Source of the DNA: Tubulinosema ratisbonensis
Lineage: Eukaryota > Microsporidia > Tubulinosematidae
Direction of reading: 5' to 3'
Assembly (NCBI GenBank): GCA_004000155.1
Contig: RCSS01000362.1
Location: 1-19,293 of the forward strand
DNA: 19,293 nucleotides
Shown piece by piece: positions 3,996 through 19,293 of the stretch. Below the pieces are notes generated by a model, which did not search any database, was not told where the DNA came from, and saw only the letters and a list, made by a program, of their open reading frames with translations. The number at the start of each line of letters is the position of its first letter. Within the stretch, counting starts at the first letter, position 1. The position numbers and the translations under genes were made by a program.

Positions 3996-4193
3996 AGAAT
4001 CCTTTTACCTATTAAAAGTATAAAAGAACTTATTCAGTACTATGAAAGCTTGAACAAAGAAGAGCGAAAAGAGCAAGAAGTTTCTTCAAATAACAATCAA
4101 ACAGAGACCACTCCTGAAATTCCTAGAGAAGAAAAGAAAAATCAAGTTATTTTCTGAAAGATTCTACTAAGTATAAGACAAAAGAAGAAGAAA

Positions 4194-4206
4194 ACACACA
4201 CACACA
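4194..4206. repeat. (AC)6 microsatellite
   Basis: A short AC dinucleotide run lies inside the broken repeat-protein gene, just upstream of the first repeat unit. It falls in the frame that reads Thr-His-Thr-His. Confidence 0.85.
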
Positions 4207-4215
4207 AAATCCTAA

Positions 4216-4443
4216 TGATTCCTTGGTTTGTAATTTAGCTGAAGAAATAAGAAGCATTAAAGATCTGATAAATTATCTGGACCAAACAGAAATTAAGATT
4301 GAAGCTTAATAAAAGAAAAGAAAGATCAAGTAACTACCAACAAGATTGCACTAAAAATGAGTCAAAAGAAAAAGAAAATATCTACTTACAAAACTTTATG
4401 ATTCCTTGGTTTGTAATATAGCGGAAGAACTAAGAAGCATTAA
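4216..4443 (+). repeat. tandem repeat, 183-bp period, two units
   Basis: The core of unit 1 (4216-4260) and of unit 2 (4399-4443) match at about 42 of 45 positions; both start TGATTCCTTGGTTTGTAAT. Similarity fades on each side. The period of 183 is a multiple of three and both cores lie in the same frame, so this was an internal protein repeat of the now broken gene. Confidence 0.85.
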
Positions 4444-5103
4444 CTATCTGAAGAATTTCTTCGAGAATGGAGATGAAAACAAAAAATATAATGTGGATTT
4501 TGACTAAGAAAAGAAAGACAAAAATGATGTTTTAACTATTGAAAATCAATTTAAAAAATATCCCAAAAAGAAAATAATTAAAGCACTTGGAATAGAAGAA
4601 GGAACAACCTTGCCACTAAAAGATTTAAAGATTTTTTGAGATATACGGAATCAATATAACATATTCTTATGGATTCATAAAAAGAGAAAATCTATTTGTT
4701 AGATTTACAAATGTAAAAGGGTTACCAATAAAAAAAGTGCTAAAAGCAGGGCTAATAAGAAAAAGATATTTTAGAAGTGATCCTAAGAATGAGAGTTGTT
4801 TTAAGCTTAGTACTTTGAGATGTATCTATGGGATTATCAGGTGTGAATTGAAAAAAATGAGATCGAAAAAATTTATAATTTCCTCATTAAAAATTTGTGC
4901 TTGTCAAAATGTTACTTTTAAATTTAAAAAATTTTTTCGATATTAAATTCTTTTTTATTAGTTTAATTTTATATTATAGTTCAATTTTAAATTAAAATTA
5001 ACTTTATGACAATCTCAAACATTCTTTTTTAAGCAATATTTGTAAATTATTTTTTAATCTATTTATTTTTAAAATAATAAACAGCATAGAAAAATGCTAT
5101 ATC

Positions 5104-5114
5104 AAATCACAAAT
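5104..5114 (+). repeat. 11-bp direct repeat, left copy (target-site duplication)
   Basis: AAATCACAAAT recurs exactly at 5506-5516, directly outside the GC-rich insert. The GC-rich sequence starts at the next base. Flanking direct repeats of this size fit target-primed reverse transcription. Confidence 0.75.
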
Positions 5115-5505
5115 GACAGTTAGTCTGTCCTAGTTAACAGTGATTAGATTCTGGTAACTCTTGATGTCTACGATTGATGGTGTTTAAGCACCTAAATTAG
5201 TGGTTTAACAATCGAACTCGTCAGGGCGATAACACAGCATCGATAAGATTGGCATTGGGAAAATTACAAAGACACCCATAGTTTTTCTCTGTAATCAAAG
5301 CCTGCAAAGTAAGGTAGACTTAGGCAGTCAATAAAGTGCCCGGGGTGGGTTTTAGCAGGTGAAAGGCCCGCAGTATCTTGAGCTATACCTAAATATGGGA
5401 AACATATTTTACTTTATGATTCCGTCAGTTAGGTATAAATATTCTTATAAAGAAGGTATAGTGAAAAGATCTTCGTATAAATCTCCCATCCCTAGACAAT
5501 AAAAA
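5115..5505 (+). mobile_element. SINE-like retroposed element or RNA copy
   Basis: This ~390-bp island has about 42% G+C in its core (101 of 240 bases at 5161-5400), twice the surroundings. It ends in an A-run (AATAAAAAAAA) and is bounded by exact 11-bp direct repeats, so it looks inserted by non-LTR retrotransposition with the + strand as the RNA sense. It contains no protein-like frame. Perfect local stems are common: GACAG/CTGTC at its 5' end, CGATTG/CAATCG enclosing GGTG/CACC, ATTACA/TGTAAT, and ATACCTAA/TTAGGTAT enclosing AATATG/CATATT. This suggests a folded parent RNA. Pol III box-like sequences are imperfect: TAGTTAACAGTG near 5130 and AATCGAACT near 5208. I could not match it to rRNA, RNase P, RNase MRP, SRP or snRNA from memory. 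A functional ncRNA gene with coincidental flanks is the main alternative. Confidence 0.6.
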
Positions 5506-5516
5506 AAATCACAAAT
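5506..5516 (+). repeat. 11-bp direct repeat, right copy (target-site duplication)
   Basis: This is the exact copy of the repeat at 5104-5114. It sits at the end of the A-run that closes the GC-rich insert, as expected for a poly(A)-tailed retroposed sequence. Confidence 0.75.
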
Positions 5517-5739
5517 AAATATGTTTAAAGATATTCGAAATATACTTTGAATCACACTTTGTTTAAAGAGATATGACTAATTTTAAAATTAAGAGCATTA
5601 TAAAATTTTTATTATTAACAATTTCTTAGATTTTTTTTCTTATAAAAATTATTAATATAAAATTTCTAAATATAAAGATGTAAATTATTGTTCATGATAA
5701 AAAATATTTAAAATACTTTTTTAATGATATAATAATATT

Positions 5740-5832
5740 TTATCCCGAGTGGTACAGCTCTAAAATCAGGTGGATGAAGTAAAATGATTTGTAATGTACT
5801 TTATTTAAACTCTTCGTTACTTTCTCAGGCAT
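5740..5832 (-). CDS. 30-codon mini-ORF with CCC before ATG, doubtful
   Basis: On the minus strand the ATG (5832-5830) is preceded directly by CCCC and opens 30 codons (MPEKVTKSLNKVHY...) up to TAA at 5742-5740. Its composition is clearly richer in G+C than the flanks, and the CCC-ATG arrangement equals that of the two intact genes here. No family is recognised, and the size is below most real proteins. The same bases form one arm of a long hairpin, so this may be an RNA or a mobile-element fragment instead. Confidence 0.2.
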   Translation of the reverse strand: MPEKVTKSLNKVHYKSFYFIHLILELYHSG

Positions 5833-5909
5833 GGGGTTCTCTCTTATTTATTTTTGAATAATAAATATAAAATTAAACCCCTATTTTGCTAGGAGCCGAA
5901 CCCATGCCT
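5828..5909 (+). repeat. long imperfect hairpin with 9-bp perfect stem end
   Basis: AGGCATGGG (5828-5836 region) pairs exactly with CCCATGCCT (5901-5909). After a bulge the pairing continues with TTC/GAA and CTC/GAG, enclosing an AT-rich loop of about 50 bases. A second hairpin follows directly (TTTGTTA-TTGAACTA-TAACAAA, about 5909-5930). Read on the minus strand, each arm carries an ATG: one opens the 30-codon frame (5832), the other an 11-codon frame starting MGSAPSKIGV (5905). It could be a structured RNA, or the inverted ends of a lost element. Confidence 0.5.
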
Positions 5910-5959
5910 TTTGTTATTGAACTATAACAAATAAGTGTAATGACTTTATGATCTTGTTA

Positions 5960-8708: not shown

Positions 8709-9971
8709 ATGAAAATCCTAAACACTTCTATTCTTCTAAAAAAATATTGTTTGTTCTCTTTATTTAACACCCTGTTCTTATCCGCTATTCCAAACATGTT
8801 CTCTAAAAATCTTTTTAAAGTGTTATACAATCCTTTATATCACATACACAGAGTAAAAAACATAGAATACCTTTACTTTATCTGTTCTTTTACCATAGTA
8901 TTATTTTTACAATGTGAAAAATACATCAAAAATATTTCTCAAAAGATCTATTTTCTCTCGTCATTTGCTTCTAAAATGATTTTTTATTCTACTTTTAAAA
9001 TTGTGCTCTATTTTGGATTTGGTTTTTCTTTAAATTATTACAGGAATTTTGCCTTGCTAGCTACAATCAGTGGGGTTTCTTCAATACTTGATACTATAGA
9101 TTACAAATTTGGACGAAAAAGCATTAAAAATTACAAGCCAGAAGGATTCATTGTTTTAATTTTTAAATATTGTTTTGAATTTTTTAAAGAAAGTCACAGA
9201 AAAATGTTTTTTCCTTTTGTAATATCACTTTATATTTACAACATTTCAAGATTTTATTTCTATTTATTTATATTTAACAAAAGAATTTCTTCCTACAATG
9301 AATTCCTACACACTCTTTCTTCTTTCTTTACTGCTTATATTTCTACTTTATTTTATAATTTTATTTGTTGTGCTACTATTTTTTCTTATGATTATAATAT
9401 TTCTAATATTGGTAACAGTGTATTTAATGATGTTAATTTTGATGAATTACCAGTTCATAAAATATATTTTAATAAATTAATTAGTTGTTTTGAGGAAAAG
9501 GAAACAAGGTTTAAAATATTAAAAACCAGGGCTGTGGTTGATTACATAAAAAGATGTGTGCTTTCTGAGATAAAAAACATAAAAGAGATCCTTGAAAAGT
9601 TTAAATCCTTGGATGAAGAAAATGAACATGTAATATTCTACTTTGTGCCTCATGAAAGCACGTCATTAGAATTCCCAACAAAAAAACTTTTAAGGAAAGT
9701 TCCAAAAAATAATTATTTAGTTATGTTTTTTCAAAAACTTAAGTCAAACATAATCAAAAGATTTTACAAAATAATTCTTACAAATTGTTTTATTACGCTA
9801 AGAGACATGAATGATTTTTTAAAGGAAGCTGAAGAGAAAGATTACGTATTCGATTATTTTAAAGAAATAAATCATAAATTAAGAAGAAACTTTGAAGAAA
9901 TTGAAAAAGAATGCAATGTTTTAGAAAAAAATCTTAAAATCACATTTGATGTAAAAAAATATATTAATTAA
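8709..9971 (+). CDS. polytopic membrane protein with charged C-terminal domain
   Basis: This 420-residue protein has two parts. The N-terminal half holds six or seven hydrophobic segments, at about 12-30, 53-69, 83-110 (perhaps two with 112-128), 145-159, 166-190 and 204-225, separated by short loops with Lys/Arg. Residues 240-420 are hydrophilic and mostly helical, with Lys/Glu-rich stretches at about 279-303 and 366-411 that could form coiled coils, so this part probably faces the cytosol. No transporter signature or catalytic motif is visible. The layout, several N-terminal membrane spans followed by a soluble helical domain, resembles the nuclear-pore anchor Ndc1, but this is a topology guess only. 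The start is supported by TACCCTTAC just before the ATG. The frame has no internal stops. ATTAAA overlaps the stop. A short Leu-rich frame inside it (9298-9480) is a shadow. Confidence 0.75.
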   Translation: MKILNTSILLKKYCLFSLFNTLFLSAIPNMFSKNLFKVLYNPLYHIHRVKNIEYLYFICSFTIVLFLQCEKYIKNISQKIYFLSSFASKMIFYSTFKIVLYFGFGFSLNYYRNFALLATISGVSSILDTIDYKFGRKSIKNYKPEGFIVLIFKYCFEFFKESHRKMFFPFVISLYIYNISRFYFYLFIFNKRISSYNEFLHTLSSFFTAYISTLFYNFICCATIFSYDYNISNIGNSVFNDVNFDELPVHKIYFNKLISCFEEKETRFKILKTRAVVDYIKRCVLSEIKNIKEILEKFKSLDEENEHVIFYFVPHESTSLEFPTKKLLRKVPKNNYLVMFFQKLKSNIIKRFYKIILTNCFITLRDMNDFLKEAEEKDYVFDYFKEINHKLRRNFEEIEKECNVLEKNLKITFDVKKYIN

Positions 9972-13924: not shown

Positions 13925-14923
13925 ATGAACTTTACATCTGATGAGCTAACAGTAATATTTTTAACTTCTACGAACAGGAAATTTTAAAGTTTCTTATGGA
14001 TAGAAAGTTCATGAAAAATAAAATTTTCTGTCCGATATGTTATCATGCCGCAAAAAATCATAAACATTTGCGAAATAGTGATGAATGTGCTTGAAGCTTT
14101 TTGCAAAGTGCATGTCTAAGTTAAAAATACTATTCTATACGATCAGGTTCTTTTTTTAGACCGTTAAGCTTAAAAATATCTTCCATACTAAGAATTTTTT
14201 TATGTATAAATGCAGACAGTCGAAGCACAGCATTAAAATTACATTGGATATTTCAACTAGCACCATTGAAAAAGACGTAAACAAGTTTAATTAATAAATA
14301 CCTAAAATTGATTTTTTCAATAATAAGTTTGACGGGCCTGTCTCTGTGGTACAAATCGATGAGACAATGTTTAATTATAAATCCAAAGCCACAGAAAAGG
14401 GTCTCTTATTAACAGAACAATTTAACTTGTATTGTAGAGGTAAGAAGTGGCATTCATATTTGTTTTGCTAAAGTGTACCTGTTAAAAAAGCAAAACATAG
14501 TTCCAATTACTTGCTCACAAGTAGCCAATAATTCTATCATTGAAACAGATGAGCATAAAAGTTATGCTAAATTAGAACTTTTTGAATTTTACCAAGGTAT
14601 CGTATGCCACAAATATGAATTTATATGTTTTGCAACAGGTATCAACATGCAAGTGTAAAATCACTTAATAATGAATTAAAATTTTAGAAATTAACCTAAA
14701 GGAATCAAAACAAAAAAAAAGAAAAAAGTTTTTGTTGAGATGCAAAGCACCCCTTTTGGTAGATTACAGTTTTAATGTTTACATTAAAAAATTATTGGTT
14801 CGATTAAATGGGAAAAAAGTATATAATACTTTTATTAAACAGATGTTGGTTTCAAAGAAACATTATTCACGTGCTAATGTTGTCCGACCACCATCTAACA
14901 AATGCAGTCTACATAAGTTTTAA
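13925..14923 (+). pseudogene. Merlin/ISXO2-like DDE transposase, decayed
   Basis: This is the relic of a cut-and-paste transposase of the Merlin (IS1595/IS1016-related) type. In order: ATG 13925 and NFTSDELTVIFLTST; a Cys pair FCPICYHAAKNHKHLR (Cys codons 14029-14040) like the N-terminal zinc ribbon; FDGPVSVVQIDETMF with the first catalytic Asp at 14358; CSQVANNSIIETDEHKSYAK with the second Asp at 14548; then HASVKSLNNELK, where the usual third-motif Glu (H-x-x-x-x-E-S) is Lys at 14658; and a basic C-terminal part ending near 14923. The pieces lie in different frames with several stops (for example within 14080-14330), so it cannot be functional. Family length (~300-330 residues) agrees with the span. 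Two short uninterrupted frames (14473-14658 and 14732-14923) are fragments of this gene. No terminal inverted repeats were recognised. Confidence 0.75.
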
Positions 14924-15177: not shown

Positions 15178-16211
15178 ATGGGTAGACAGATAGGTGAGTG
15201 GATTTCAGATTTTGTAGTTTAGTTGCGGAAGGAAAAAATTTCTTTGAAAACTAGCTGATTTGACTAAAATCCCAGTGGCCACTATACATGCAATAGTTAG
15301 TCGATATGAAGCTCGCGGGAATTTATTACGAAAAGAAGGATCAGACAGAAGACAAGTTTTTTAGATCAAAGAAAAAGAATAAATTGTTTCTTTAATCAAT
15401 CAAAATTCAAAAATAAAGTATTTTAAAATTCTTGCCAAAGAATTTAATACCGGATGCATAGCAAGAACAATAAGAAATTTCTTAAAAAAAGAGGGTTCTT
15501 AAACAGAATAGCGTGTAAAAAGCCTTTTCTCAGTAAAAAAATATTATAAAGCGAGTAAATTATTGCAAGAATTACATTTTGCAAGAGTGTTCATTTTGGA
15601 AAAAGGTAATATTCTCTGACGAATGCAACTTTAATTTATATGGGAACGATGCGAAACAAAAGGTAAGGCGAAAAAACAAATCAACGATATTCACAAAAAA
15701 TATACAACTGACGGTGAAATTTAGAGGGGTTACGGTGATGTGCTGAAGATGTTTCCATCATAAGGAGTGCGAGAAAGTTTTTATTAAAGGAAGCATTGGC
15801 CGATTCTTTGTCTTGATCTCTTAAAAAATTCACTAAAAGGTCAACTAGCAAACTTAAAATGGAAGTGGACTTTGATTTTCATCACGACAACGACCCAAAG
15901 CATACATTCAAATGATCAAAAACTATTAAGATTCGAAAAAAATTGACGTTATTCCATGGCCGTCACAGTCGCCTGATCTTAGACCTATTGACCATCTCTA
16001 AGCCTATATATAAACAAAGCTTAAAAATATTGAAAGCAGAGAAGAGTTTAAAAAAGATAAAAATTGTTTGGAACAGTATTACCCTGAATTTTGCAAAAAA
16101 TTAATTCTAAATATACTAAAAGGGTTAAAAGAAGTTATCAAAGAACTGATCGACAAAACGTCACAAAAATTTTGTCGCTGCATTTTATCTGCAAATTTTA
16201 TACTATTGTAG
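15178..16211 (+). pseudogene. Tc1/mariner-type DDE transposase, decayed
   Basis: This is the relic of a Tc1-like transposase of about 345 codons, the usual length. It starts near ATG 15178 (MGRQIGEWISDFVV). The N-terminal DNA-binding region reads TKIPVATIHAIVSRYEARGN then LLRKEGSDRR, followed by the second helical domain (IKYFKILAKEF). The catalytic motifs are FSDECNFNLYGNDAK (Asp codon 15618), HHDNDPKHT (Asp 15886) and IPWPSQSPDLRPIDHL (third acidic residue, Asp codon 15990). D1-D2 spacing is about 89 and D2-D3 about 34 residues, as in the family, but Tc1 elements normally have Glu in the last motif (PIENLW). The C-terminus (EFCKKLILNILKGLKEVIKE) ends at TAG 16211. Many stops (TAG, TAA, TGA) and frameshifts make it inactive. 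Confidence 0.85.
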
Positions 16212-16670: not shown

Positions 16671-17861
16671 AATTAACTTTAGAGGAAATAAACTAAGAGT
16701 TTGACATTAATTTATTTTAAAATATAATCACAAAAAGGTATTTATAATTTGTTTATTAGAGTTGTGTTTATAAATTAAAATATTCTTTGTAACATAGATC
16801 ATTAAATTAATTAGGTAAGTCTATTTACTTTATTTATAAATTTAAAAGATTACATGGAAACTTTAATAAGGATTAATATTAGTTGAAATGCAACAAATCA
16901 TAATTCAATAAAATTATAAATAAACAATAGTTACATTGTTTATAATCACACGTACTATTTATTTTAAATATATGAGATTGATTAGGTAATTTAAAAAATT
17001 AAAATTTGTTCAAAAAGATGAGTGTATTCTTAGGTATAATATTTAAAAAAAATTTTTACTAAGGTTACTTTTATTTAGGTTATCACTCTTACTTAATACT
17101 CCTTTCTTTTATGGATGTTCCTCACATCTCTTCATATACTTTTATTTCAGATCAGACCATTTATACTTCCCTTTCAGTGACCGATCATTAATAAAATCGA
17201 TATAGAAAGGATTAATAAGATCTGACTAGGAAAATTAAATATATTACTTTTTATATTTTTATAAGGTCTTTCTTAGATTAGCTCTATAAATAAACTCACT
17301 CTAGGAACAATTTTAGTATTTTAAAAGATTCTGATAAATTTCCCAATAATTTATTTATTTATAAAAATTTAATTTACAGTATTAGTTAATTAAAGTAAAT
17401 GTTTAAGTAAATAAAAACTATTTTAAATTTATAAATATTACAAAATAAATTAAAGATATTTAGAATTTAAAATAATTTTTATAAATTAAATATTAATATT
17501 TAAATTACATTTAAAAGTCATAAAACATTTTATTTTATGAGTATAATTTTATAAAATAACTAAACTTTTAATTTATAGTGTTTTATTAATTTTTTTGTTG
17601 CCTAAGAATAAGATATCTATACAAAGATATTTTTGATATACCTTTTATATTTAGTATAATACATAGTTAAAATATGTATTACTTTTTTAAAAAATAGATG
17701 ATTTCTACTAAAAAACTAATTTTATTATTTAAAAATTACAAAGTATAAGAGATAAAATATTAACTTTACTAGTAATCATATTAAACCTCACTAATTTATA
17801 CTTATCATTATTTTTATTATTTTTAAGTTTGTAAATTTTTACTTTTATTGTCAGTCTTTAA

Positions 17862-18361: not shown

Positions 18362-19293
18362 CTAATTTTTAGTTTTTCAAAGAAAAAAAACATTTTTAAA
18401 ATTATAAATTTTTCATTAAAACAATTTCTTTTTTTTATTTTTAAAATAAGCATTTGATTATCTAATAAAATTATAATAAATATTTTTATTACTTAATTTT
18501 TATCTTCAAATAAAGAATTTTATAATATTTTTTATAAATATAACTCAATTTGTAAAATTATCTTTATTTTATAATAAGTTTCTTATATCATTTTATAAAA
18601 ATAGATTTTAATTTTAGATTTAATTATAAATAATAAATTAGTAAAATTAAACATTCTTAATATTTTATTATTACATTTTAAAAAATATAAATTACTAAAT
18701 AATTTATGAAAATTTTATTATTTAAAGTATTGATTAACAATAAAGTGTTTATCTTCAAAAAAATTATATTTTTTAATAAGAATATTTAATTATAGAATAT
18801 AATCTATTTTTAAATTTATTAAATAAAAAATATTAATTAAAATATATTATTTTCTTTTTGTTATTTAAGTAAAAAAATACTTAAAATCTTCTATCATTAT
18901 ACTTTCTTTATATGTTAAAAATAACATTTCGATATGAAAAAAATATAATTTTAAATATTTGTATATATTAGATAGACTTAGAATACTGCAATCCATTCAA
19001 AAATAAAATTCAACATGTGCATTATATTAATTGTTTAATTTTACCTTACCTTGCATGCTTTGATTACAATAAATTCTGCTAAATATCAGAATATCTTGTA
19101 ATATTTTTAGATATTTTACATTTACAACTAATTATTTTAAATATAAAATTTTTAGAATTCTTAATTTATTTTTTAATTTTAATTATTAAATTACAGATCA
19201 ATGGTTTAATTTATTATTAAAACAACAAAATAAATAAGAAAAAAATAATATTAAATTATTAAAATTATAAAGTTTGCAATTTAAGAACAATAA

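Follow-up and report, generated by a model that had tools for sequence, protein, structure and literature searches.

We have identified a GC-rich island of the Tubulinosema ratisbonensis genome that is, as judged from its sequence, a composite in which a SINE body has a different 5' sequence fused to its front. Alignments of the body show one family that comes in two forms, a short one (body) and a long one (a head, termed head A, plus body), and in the island an unrelated head, termed head B, is fused at the family's standard start. That head B and the body were inserted as one unit is indicated but not proven. On balance, we regard the island as the probable product of one old retroposition, in which reverse transcription of the body RNA would have been followed by a template switch to the head B RNA and by joint insertion of both.

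The island lies in a stretch of 19,293 nucleotides (the window), which is contig C140 of the sequence searched (4,116,903 bases in 236 contigs). An NPL4 protein from its contig C61 matches that of T. ratisbonensis with 100% identity over the 379 residues compared. The sequence searched would represent ~54% of the T. ratisbonensis draft, and every absence reported below is limited to that part. The draft genome comprises 7,555,974 nt in 952 contigs with 23.2% GC (PMC6675976). Positions of the features of the island and of the related loci are collected in Table 1.

Table 1. Features of the composite island in the window and selected copies of the SINE family on other contigs
Feature	Position	Strand	Basis or remark
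Target-site duplication, left copy, AAATCACAAAT	5104-5114	+	exact match with 5506-5516
Head B, GC-rich 5' module, 174 nt, ending TTTTTCT	5115-5288	+	single copy in searched contigs
Junction between head B and the SINE body, at the start point of many other copies	5283-5290	+	sequence; alignments
SINE body and tail (consensus 1-218)	5289-5506	+	8.7% diverged from consensus of 30 copies
Tail segment (consensus 163-194) also present at the LINE 3' end (G000:C19)	5451-5482	+	sequence match
A-run (A8), 3' end of element	5501-5508	+	sequence; A-run in the 30 aligned copies
Target-site duplication, right copy, AAATCACAAAT	5506-5516	+	exact match with 5104-5114
Copies with distant repeat	window; C2:10689; C60:16673; C158:3155; C221:21242		laxer score
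Example duplication AATATCAGAAAGAGGG	C125:6468
Example duplication AATGAACAACACAGAA	C143:10876		copy truncated to position 54

The island is enclosed by an 11-bp direct repeat, AAATCACAAAT, which has only these two exact occurrences in the window and whose reverse complement is absent from the same 19,293 bases. The 391 bases between the repeats have 37.9% GC, compared with 13.6% in the flanks (190 bases to the left plus 200 to the right) and 21.0% in the window as a whole. The original prediction, a GC-rich island of ~390 bp, was therefore correct in size and in GC contrast, but its estimate of ~42% GC was too high; the exact 11-bp flanking repeats and the terminal A-run that it described are both present. 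The first three A residues of the right repeat are also the last three of the A-run, and the unambiguous repeat is consequently 8 bp. Base composition defines the left border only to ~30 nt, with the best change point at 5082 and position 5108 about one log unit worse, and the change point on the right is captured by another GC-richer patch from ~5744. Since these change points are imprecise, the borders are defined by the repeat together with the 3' end common to other copies; by these measures, but not by composition, the repeats lie exactly at the borders, as had been claimed. The GC-richer patch itself occupies 5744-5920, ~230 nt past the element (its start is the change point and its end was set by eye).

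Chance levels were obtained from crossed pairs, in which upstream and downstream flanks are taken from different copies of the family (122 copies). With ~400 nt of upstream sequence searched, an exact 11-mer containing at least two G/C occurred by chance in 60 of 14,762 crossed flank pairs (~0.4%). Under a laxer score that allows mismatches, the window's value was reached in 6 of 238 comparisons crossing the window's own flanks and, for repeats at least 30 nt upstream, in 62 of 3000 crossed pairs (~2%). By the same score, distant repeats as good as that of the window were observed in 5 of the 122 copies versus ~2.5 expected by chance (Table 1). For the copy at C158:3155, the downstream flank is another SINE copy. 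The copy at C221:21242 is accompanied by an exact repeat of 11 bp, TTCTTAAGAAA, which lies 274 nt before its body and has a score equal to that of the window; it may reflect chance or another composite. Taken alone, the outer 11-bp repeat of the island is moderately unlikely by chance and constitutes fair, not overwhelming, evidence.

The 3' part of the island is one of many copies. In a first search that yielded 45 matches (40 of the 230 initial candidates were scored), 39 places besides the window matched the body with 84-90% identity over at least 211 nt. When up to three mismatches were allowed, a 30-nt tail motif was found at 130 places in 4.1 Mb, and its reversed control at none. We examined 128 non-redundant places, and the 3' end was kept in 122. 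Alignments of these 122 copies start at consensus 1-2 in 57 cases, at 3-18 in 8 and at 43 or later in the remaining 57, and on this pattern the last group is 5'-truncated. Apart from TC at -2/-1 (T in 37 and C in 43 of 52), the sequences preceding the full-length start show no relationship to one another.

The original prediction held that copies with variable flanks and their own duplications would prove a SINE, and such copies were found: a direct repeat adjacent to the copy start (-4 to +9 nt) scored at least 11 in 34 of 122 copies versus 5 of 3000 crossed pairs. With a score of at least 9, the counts were 42 of 122 and 30 of 3000. Adjacent repeats of this lower score are absent in 80 of the 122 copies, some of them young; among copies starting at consensus 1-2, they are present in 21 and lacking in 36 of 57. 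Truncated copies with an adjacent duplication of their own include C56:9249, C143:10876 and C109:12809, and two duplications are given as examples in Table 1. By structure, the body family is a SINE: its unit is short (218-nt body) and dispersed in many copies, the window copy has stops in all six frames, the 30 aligned copies end in an A-rich 3' tail, the target-site duplications vary, and a fixed 5' start occurs together with 5'-truncated copies. A Pol III origin is a candidate only. The prediction of a new SINE family thus holds for a many-copy, SINE-like family, but the repeated unit is just the 3' 218 nt of the island; the 5' 174 nt are different and occur once in the searched contigs. 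The window contains two further, old remnants of the family on the minus strand, one at 17591-17650 (consensus 159-218 at 80%) and one at 19004-19068 (consensus 2-66 at 77%).

The tail of the body points to a LINE partner. SINE consensus 163-194 matches the end of the LINE on contig C19 over 32 nt at 90.6%, and the window copy matches it over 28 nt at 92.9%. A reverse transcriptase family search returned 27 RVT_1 matches, and 20 loci were viewed as translations; most of these 20 we take to be Ty3/gypsy-like, as judged by eye from their motifs. The C19 non-LTR reverse transcriptase is the best preserved (RVT_1, 69.5 bits; cut-off 29.6), with broken frames, and the endonuclease region upstream of it scores below the cut-off (Exo_endo_phos_2, 23.4 bits; cut-off 27.4). 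The 32-nt tail match is located 626 nt past the last open frame, just ahead of an A-run; the final 17 nt before this A-run match the SINE poorly, and a convincing target-site duplication of the C19 LINE was not found. A protein search with this LINE recovered two weak remnants besides itself. Contig C22 was considered as a second LINE with the shared tail and rejected, as it carries a SINE copy. The variants on C180 and C20, which consist of the tail only, begin where the LINE match begins. For five of the 122 copies (e.g. C109:12809 and C110:1939), the first position is exactly consensus 163, the onset of the LINE-like tail, and two of the five have exact repeats at their start; these copies could be LINE or SINE ends. 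A resident APE-type LINE is the likely partner of the SINE family, in a partnership that is not firm because the tail match comes from one decayed LINE with a poor match in its last 17 nt and no convincing duplication. The earlier claim of LINE-driven retroposition is thus upheld as to retroposition, the part played by a LINE being likely, from the 32-nt match to a single decayed copy.

Some copies extend beyond the body. Head A, ~200 nt in length, was found at 10 places and is directly joined to the body in nine of them. Among the 57 copies starting at consensus 1-2, five continue into a head, namely the window copy and four copies with head A. At C2:10689, a 200-nt head A and the body are enclosed by an exact 13-bp repeat, and at C60:16673 a 32-nt 5' extension lies inside an exact 15-bp duplication. 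Copies of head A align to one another at ~75-90%. Because a tree of the bodies intermixes copies with head A and headless copies, the two forms constitute one family; most of the eight head A bodies in this tree are old, and that of C52 is placed among the young copies. Head A was also considered as LINE 3' sequence, an assignment rejected as no head A match was present on C19.

Body position 1 is the point of attachment for head A as well as for head B, which abuts it without a spacer. Compared with head A in each of the 10 copies, head B shows no significant similarity (46 to 300 of 300 shuffles do equally well). No second copy of head B was detected in the 4.1 Mb of contigs by a search that can miss sequence, and no match was found in plasmids or phages. 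SSU rRNA was not found by RF02542 in the genome search. The upstream GC of the window copy, i.e. that of head B, is 0.38, the joint highest among the 122 copies (median 0.213). The exact 11-bp duplication is positioned outside head B, and the 40 nt just before the window body hold no comparable repeat (7.6 vs 12.6). The body itself is by its alignment a decayed copy, 14 of its 19 changes from the consensus being G/C to A/T. At three positions where head A copies and young short copies differ in their commonest base, it has the young-copy states. Head B is probably the cDNA of another RNA.

The 413-nt strand was predicted to fold better than 100 of 100 shuffles (z -2.67). The folding signal is in the 3' body (z -2.8 for the window copy and -3.7 for the consensus), and the 5' part, head B, is not significant (z -1.2); the suggestion of a folded parent RNA is accordingly borne out for the body but not for the 5' part. 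Rfam, through which the parent RNA was to be recognized, yielded no gathering-level match in the window. For positions 5050-5560 there was nothing at E<=1 and, at E<=10, three hits with E values of 2.7-7. At five further loci containing parts of the family (body, tail or head A), the only match at E<=1 was a tRNA away from the element, and neither the body nor head A had an Rfam match indicating a tRNA, 5S or 7SL head. A consensus scan, which diverged or other promoters could escape, found no plausibly spaced pair of Pol III A and B boxes. One-mismatch A-like sites occur at 173 of the body, at 49, 149 and 177 of head A and at 87 of head B. Head A has one B-like site at 64, merely 15 nt from an A-like site, and head B has a three-mismatch B-like site at 28, before its A-like site.

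Several other features were noted in the window. Two diverged tandem units of ~183 nt each, 74-85% alike, are located at 4129-4457 (+), and the first of them holds a 60-codon open frame (4127-4309). The longest open reading frame, at 8709-9971 (+), encodes 420 aa and matches no Pfam family at or above the cut-off. Broken transposase-like frames are present at 14413-14923 (+), with an ISXO2-like match (DDE_Tnp_IS1595, 19.3 bits; cut-off 27), and at 15537-16211 (+), with no Pfam match; the latter is presumably mariner-like, as judged by eye from a motif.

We infer the use of a LINE enzyme, the template switch and the derivation of head B from a U-tailed cellular RNA. Reverse transcription, probably by the enzyme of the resident APE-type LINE, would start on an A-tailed SINE-like RNA of ~218 nt and proceed up to its 5' end. 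The enzyme would then switch to another small RNA, the U-ended head B RNA of ~174 nt, entering it at its 3' end, and target-primed insertion of the combined cDNA at AAATCACAAAT would duplicate this site. Such a one-event, target-primed insertion is the simplest account of the island.

The main rival, which we consider unlikely but worth serious attention, is that head B was a resident ncRNA gene or an older element behind which the body was inserted with no recognisable duplication, the 11-bp repeat being due to chance. Full-length copies without an adjacent repeat of score at least 9 are common in the family (36 of the 57 starting at consensus 1-2), and the crossed control for distant repeats, in which 62 of 3000 pairs equal the window, makes this rival somewhat likelier. 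Head B also ends in TTTTTCT, and a Pol III gene might end in such a T-run. An exact 11-mer with two G/C is nevertheless found in just 60 of 14,762 crossed pairs and here lies near a composition border, and head B adjoins the body, without a spacer, exactly where the body normally starts. A 5' transduction, by which the 5' part would be genomic DNA from upstream of the SINE source copy that was co-transcribed with it, appears improbable. Extensions of 32 and 200 nt do lie inside exact duplications in two other copies, but the GC content of the island (37.9% against 13.6% in the flanks) argues against it, head B is richer than nearly all upstream stretches, and a source copy with head B upstream was not found in the searched contigs.

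We give even less credence to head B as a strongly diverged head A, which would make the window copy simply a long-form SINE. The two heads are similar in length (174 vs ~200 nt) and share the same junction, and the best local alignment with the C2 head spans 34 columns with two gaps; for each of the 10 head A copies, however, 46 to 300 of 300 shuffles align as well, and the window body is 8.7% diverged while head A copies still align with each other at ~75-90%. Least credible of all is an ordinary single-copy ncRNA gene or a protein-coding remnant. The whole strand does fold better than shuffles, but its 3' 218 nt recur at many places, stops occur in all six frames, and the window has no gathering-level Rfam match. 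For the 3' part, an ordinary ncRNA gene is ruled out by copy number, and a protein-coding origin is ruled out by the stops.

Insertion of head B and the body in one retroposition, the reading we favor, has parallels in known systems. SINEs with LINE-derived 3' tails form a general class, which the present family resembles as a short non-coding unit with dispersed copies, 5' truncation, an A-tail, its own duplications and probable sharing of a LINE tail. It differs from that class in having no Rfam tRNA, 5S or 7SL head and no plausibly spaced Pol III box pair, and in occurring in forms with and without head A, in addition to the window chimera. The snRNA-L1 chimeras of mammals consist of a small RNA fused 5' of a retroelement; the window has the same arrangement, with a putative small RNA and with a SINE as the retroelement part. 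The nearest likeness is WEIRD-MgSINE of Magnaporthe grisea, a bipartite chimera of an ncRNA copy fused to a SINE, which is attributed to a switch between RNA templates in the course of LINE reverse transcription (Gogvadze et al. 2007, PMC2104539). In both cases a 5' sequence, an ncRNA copy there and a probable one in the window, is directly fused to a SINE with a 3' end similar (in the window, probably so) to the end of a resident LINE, and a single pair of direct repeats surrounds the whole (12 bp there, 11 bp in the window). WEIRD-MgSINE differs in that its SINE part is 5'-truncated and its 5' partner is a known RNA of 1.1 kb with high expression (PMC2104539); in the window, the body is attached by its normal 5' start to a head B of 174 nt. 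The host of the window, furthermore, is a microsporidian.

Transposable elements of microsporidia described in the main text of a survey are non-LTR and LTR retrotransposons, Mariner, Merlin and piggyBac (Parisot et al. 2014, PMC4202319). In T. ratisbonensis, LTR elements, Mariner and Merlin account for 91.8% of 160 transposable element sequences, the rest being unnamed (Polonais et al. 2019, PMC6675976). The statement that SINEs are little described in microsporidia agrees with these sources: the T. ratisbonensis genome note says nothing of SINEs (PMC6675976), and a term search found none in the main text of the transposon survey (PMC4202319) or in the main texts of two papers on microsporidian genomes (PMC12558613 and PMC3749934). 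SINEs and microsporidia are mentioned apart from each other in the available text of PMC6416283 and of PMC4438587, and table 2 of the latter lists SINE2 tRNA in every taxonomic group studied. A literature search of open-licence PMC papers, covering titles, abstract starts and some main texts, did not find a report of a microsporidian SINE.

This retroposon family, which has a probable LINE partner within the ~7.6-Mb draft genome, extends SINE-like elements to microsporidia and supplies insertion markers for T. ratisbonensis, a parasite of a model fly. If confirmed, the window chimera would mean that unrelated RNAs can become joined during reverse transcription in this organism; it may also retain a small RNA that has diverged beyond the reach of existing models. 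We tentatively suggest that the 5' end of the SINE may be a recurrent jump point to other small RNAs, with head B as a near full-length copy of an undescribed, U-tailed, probably Pol III small RNA and head A as an earlier partner fixed likewise. If true, a SINE would be exchanging its heads as modules in a eukaryote with a very small genome.
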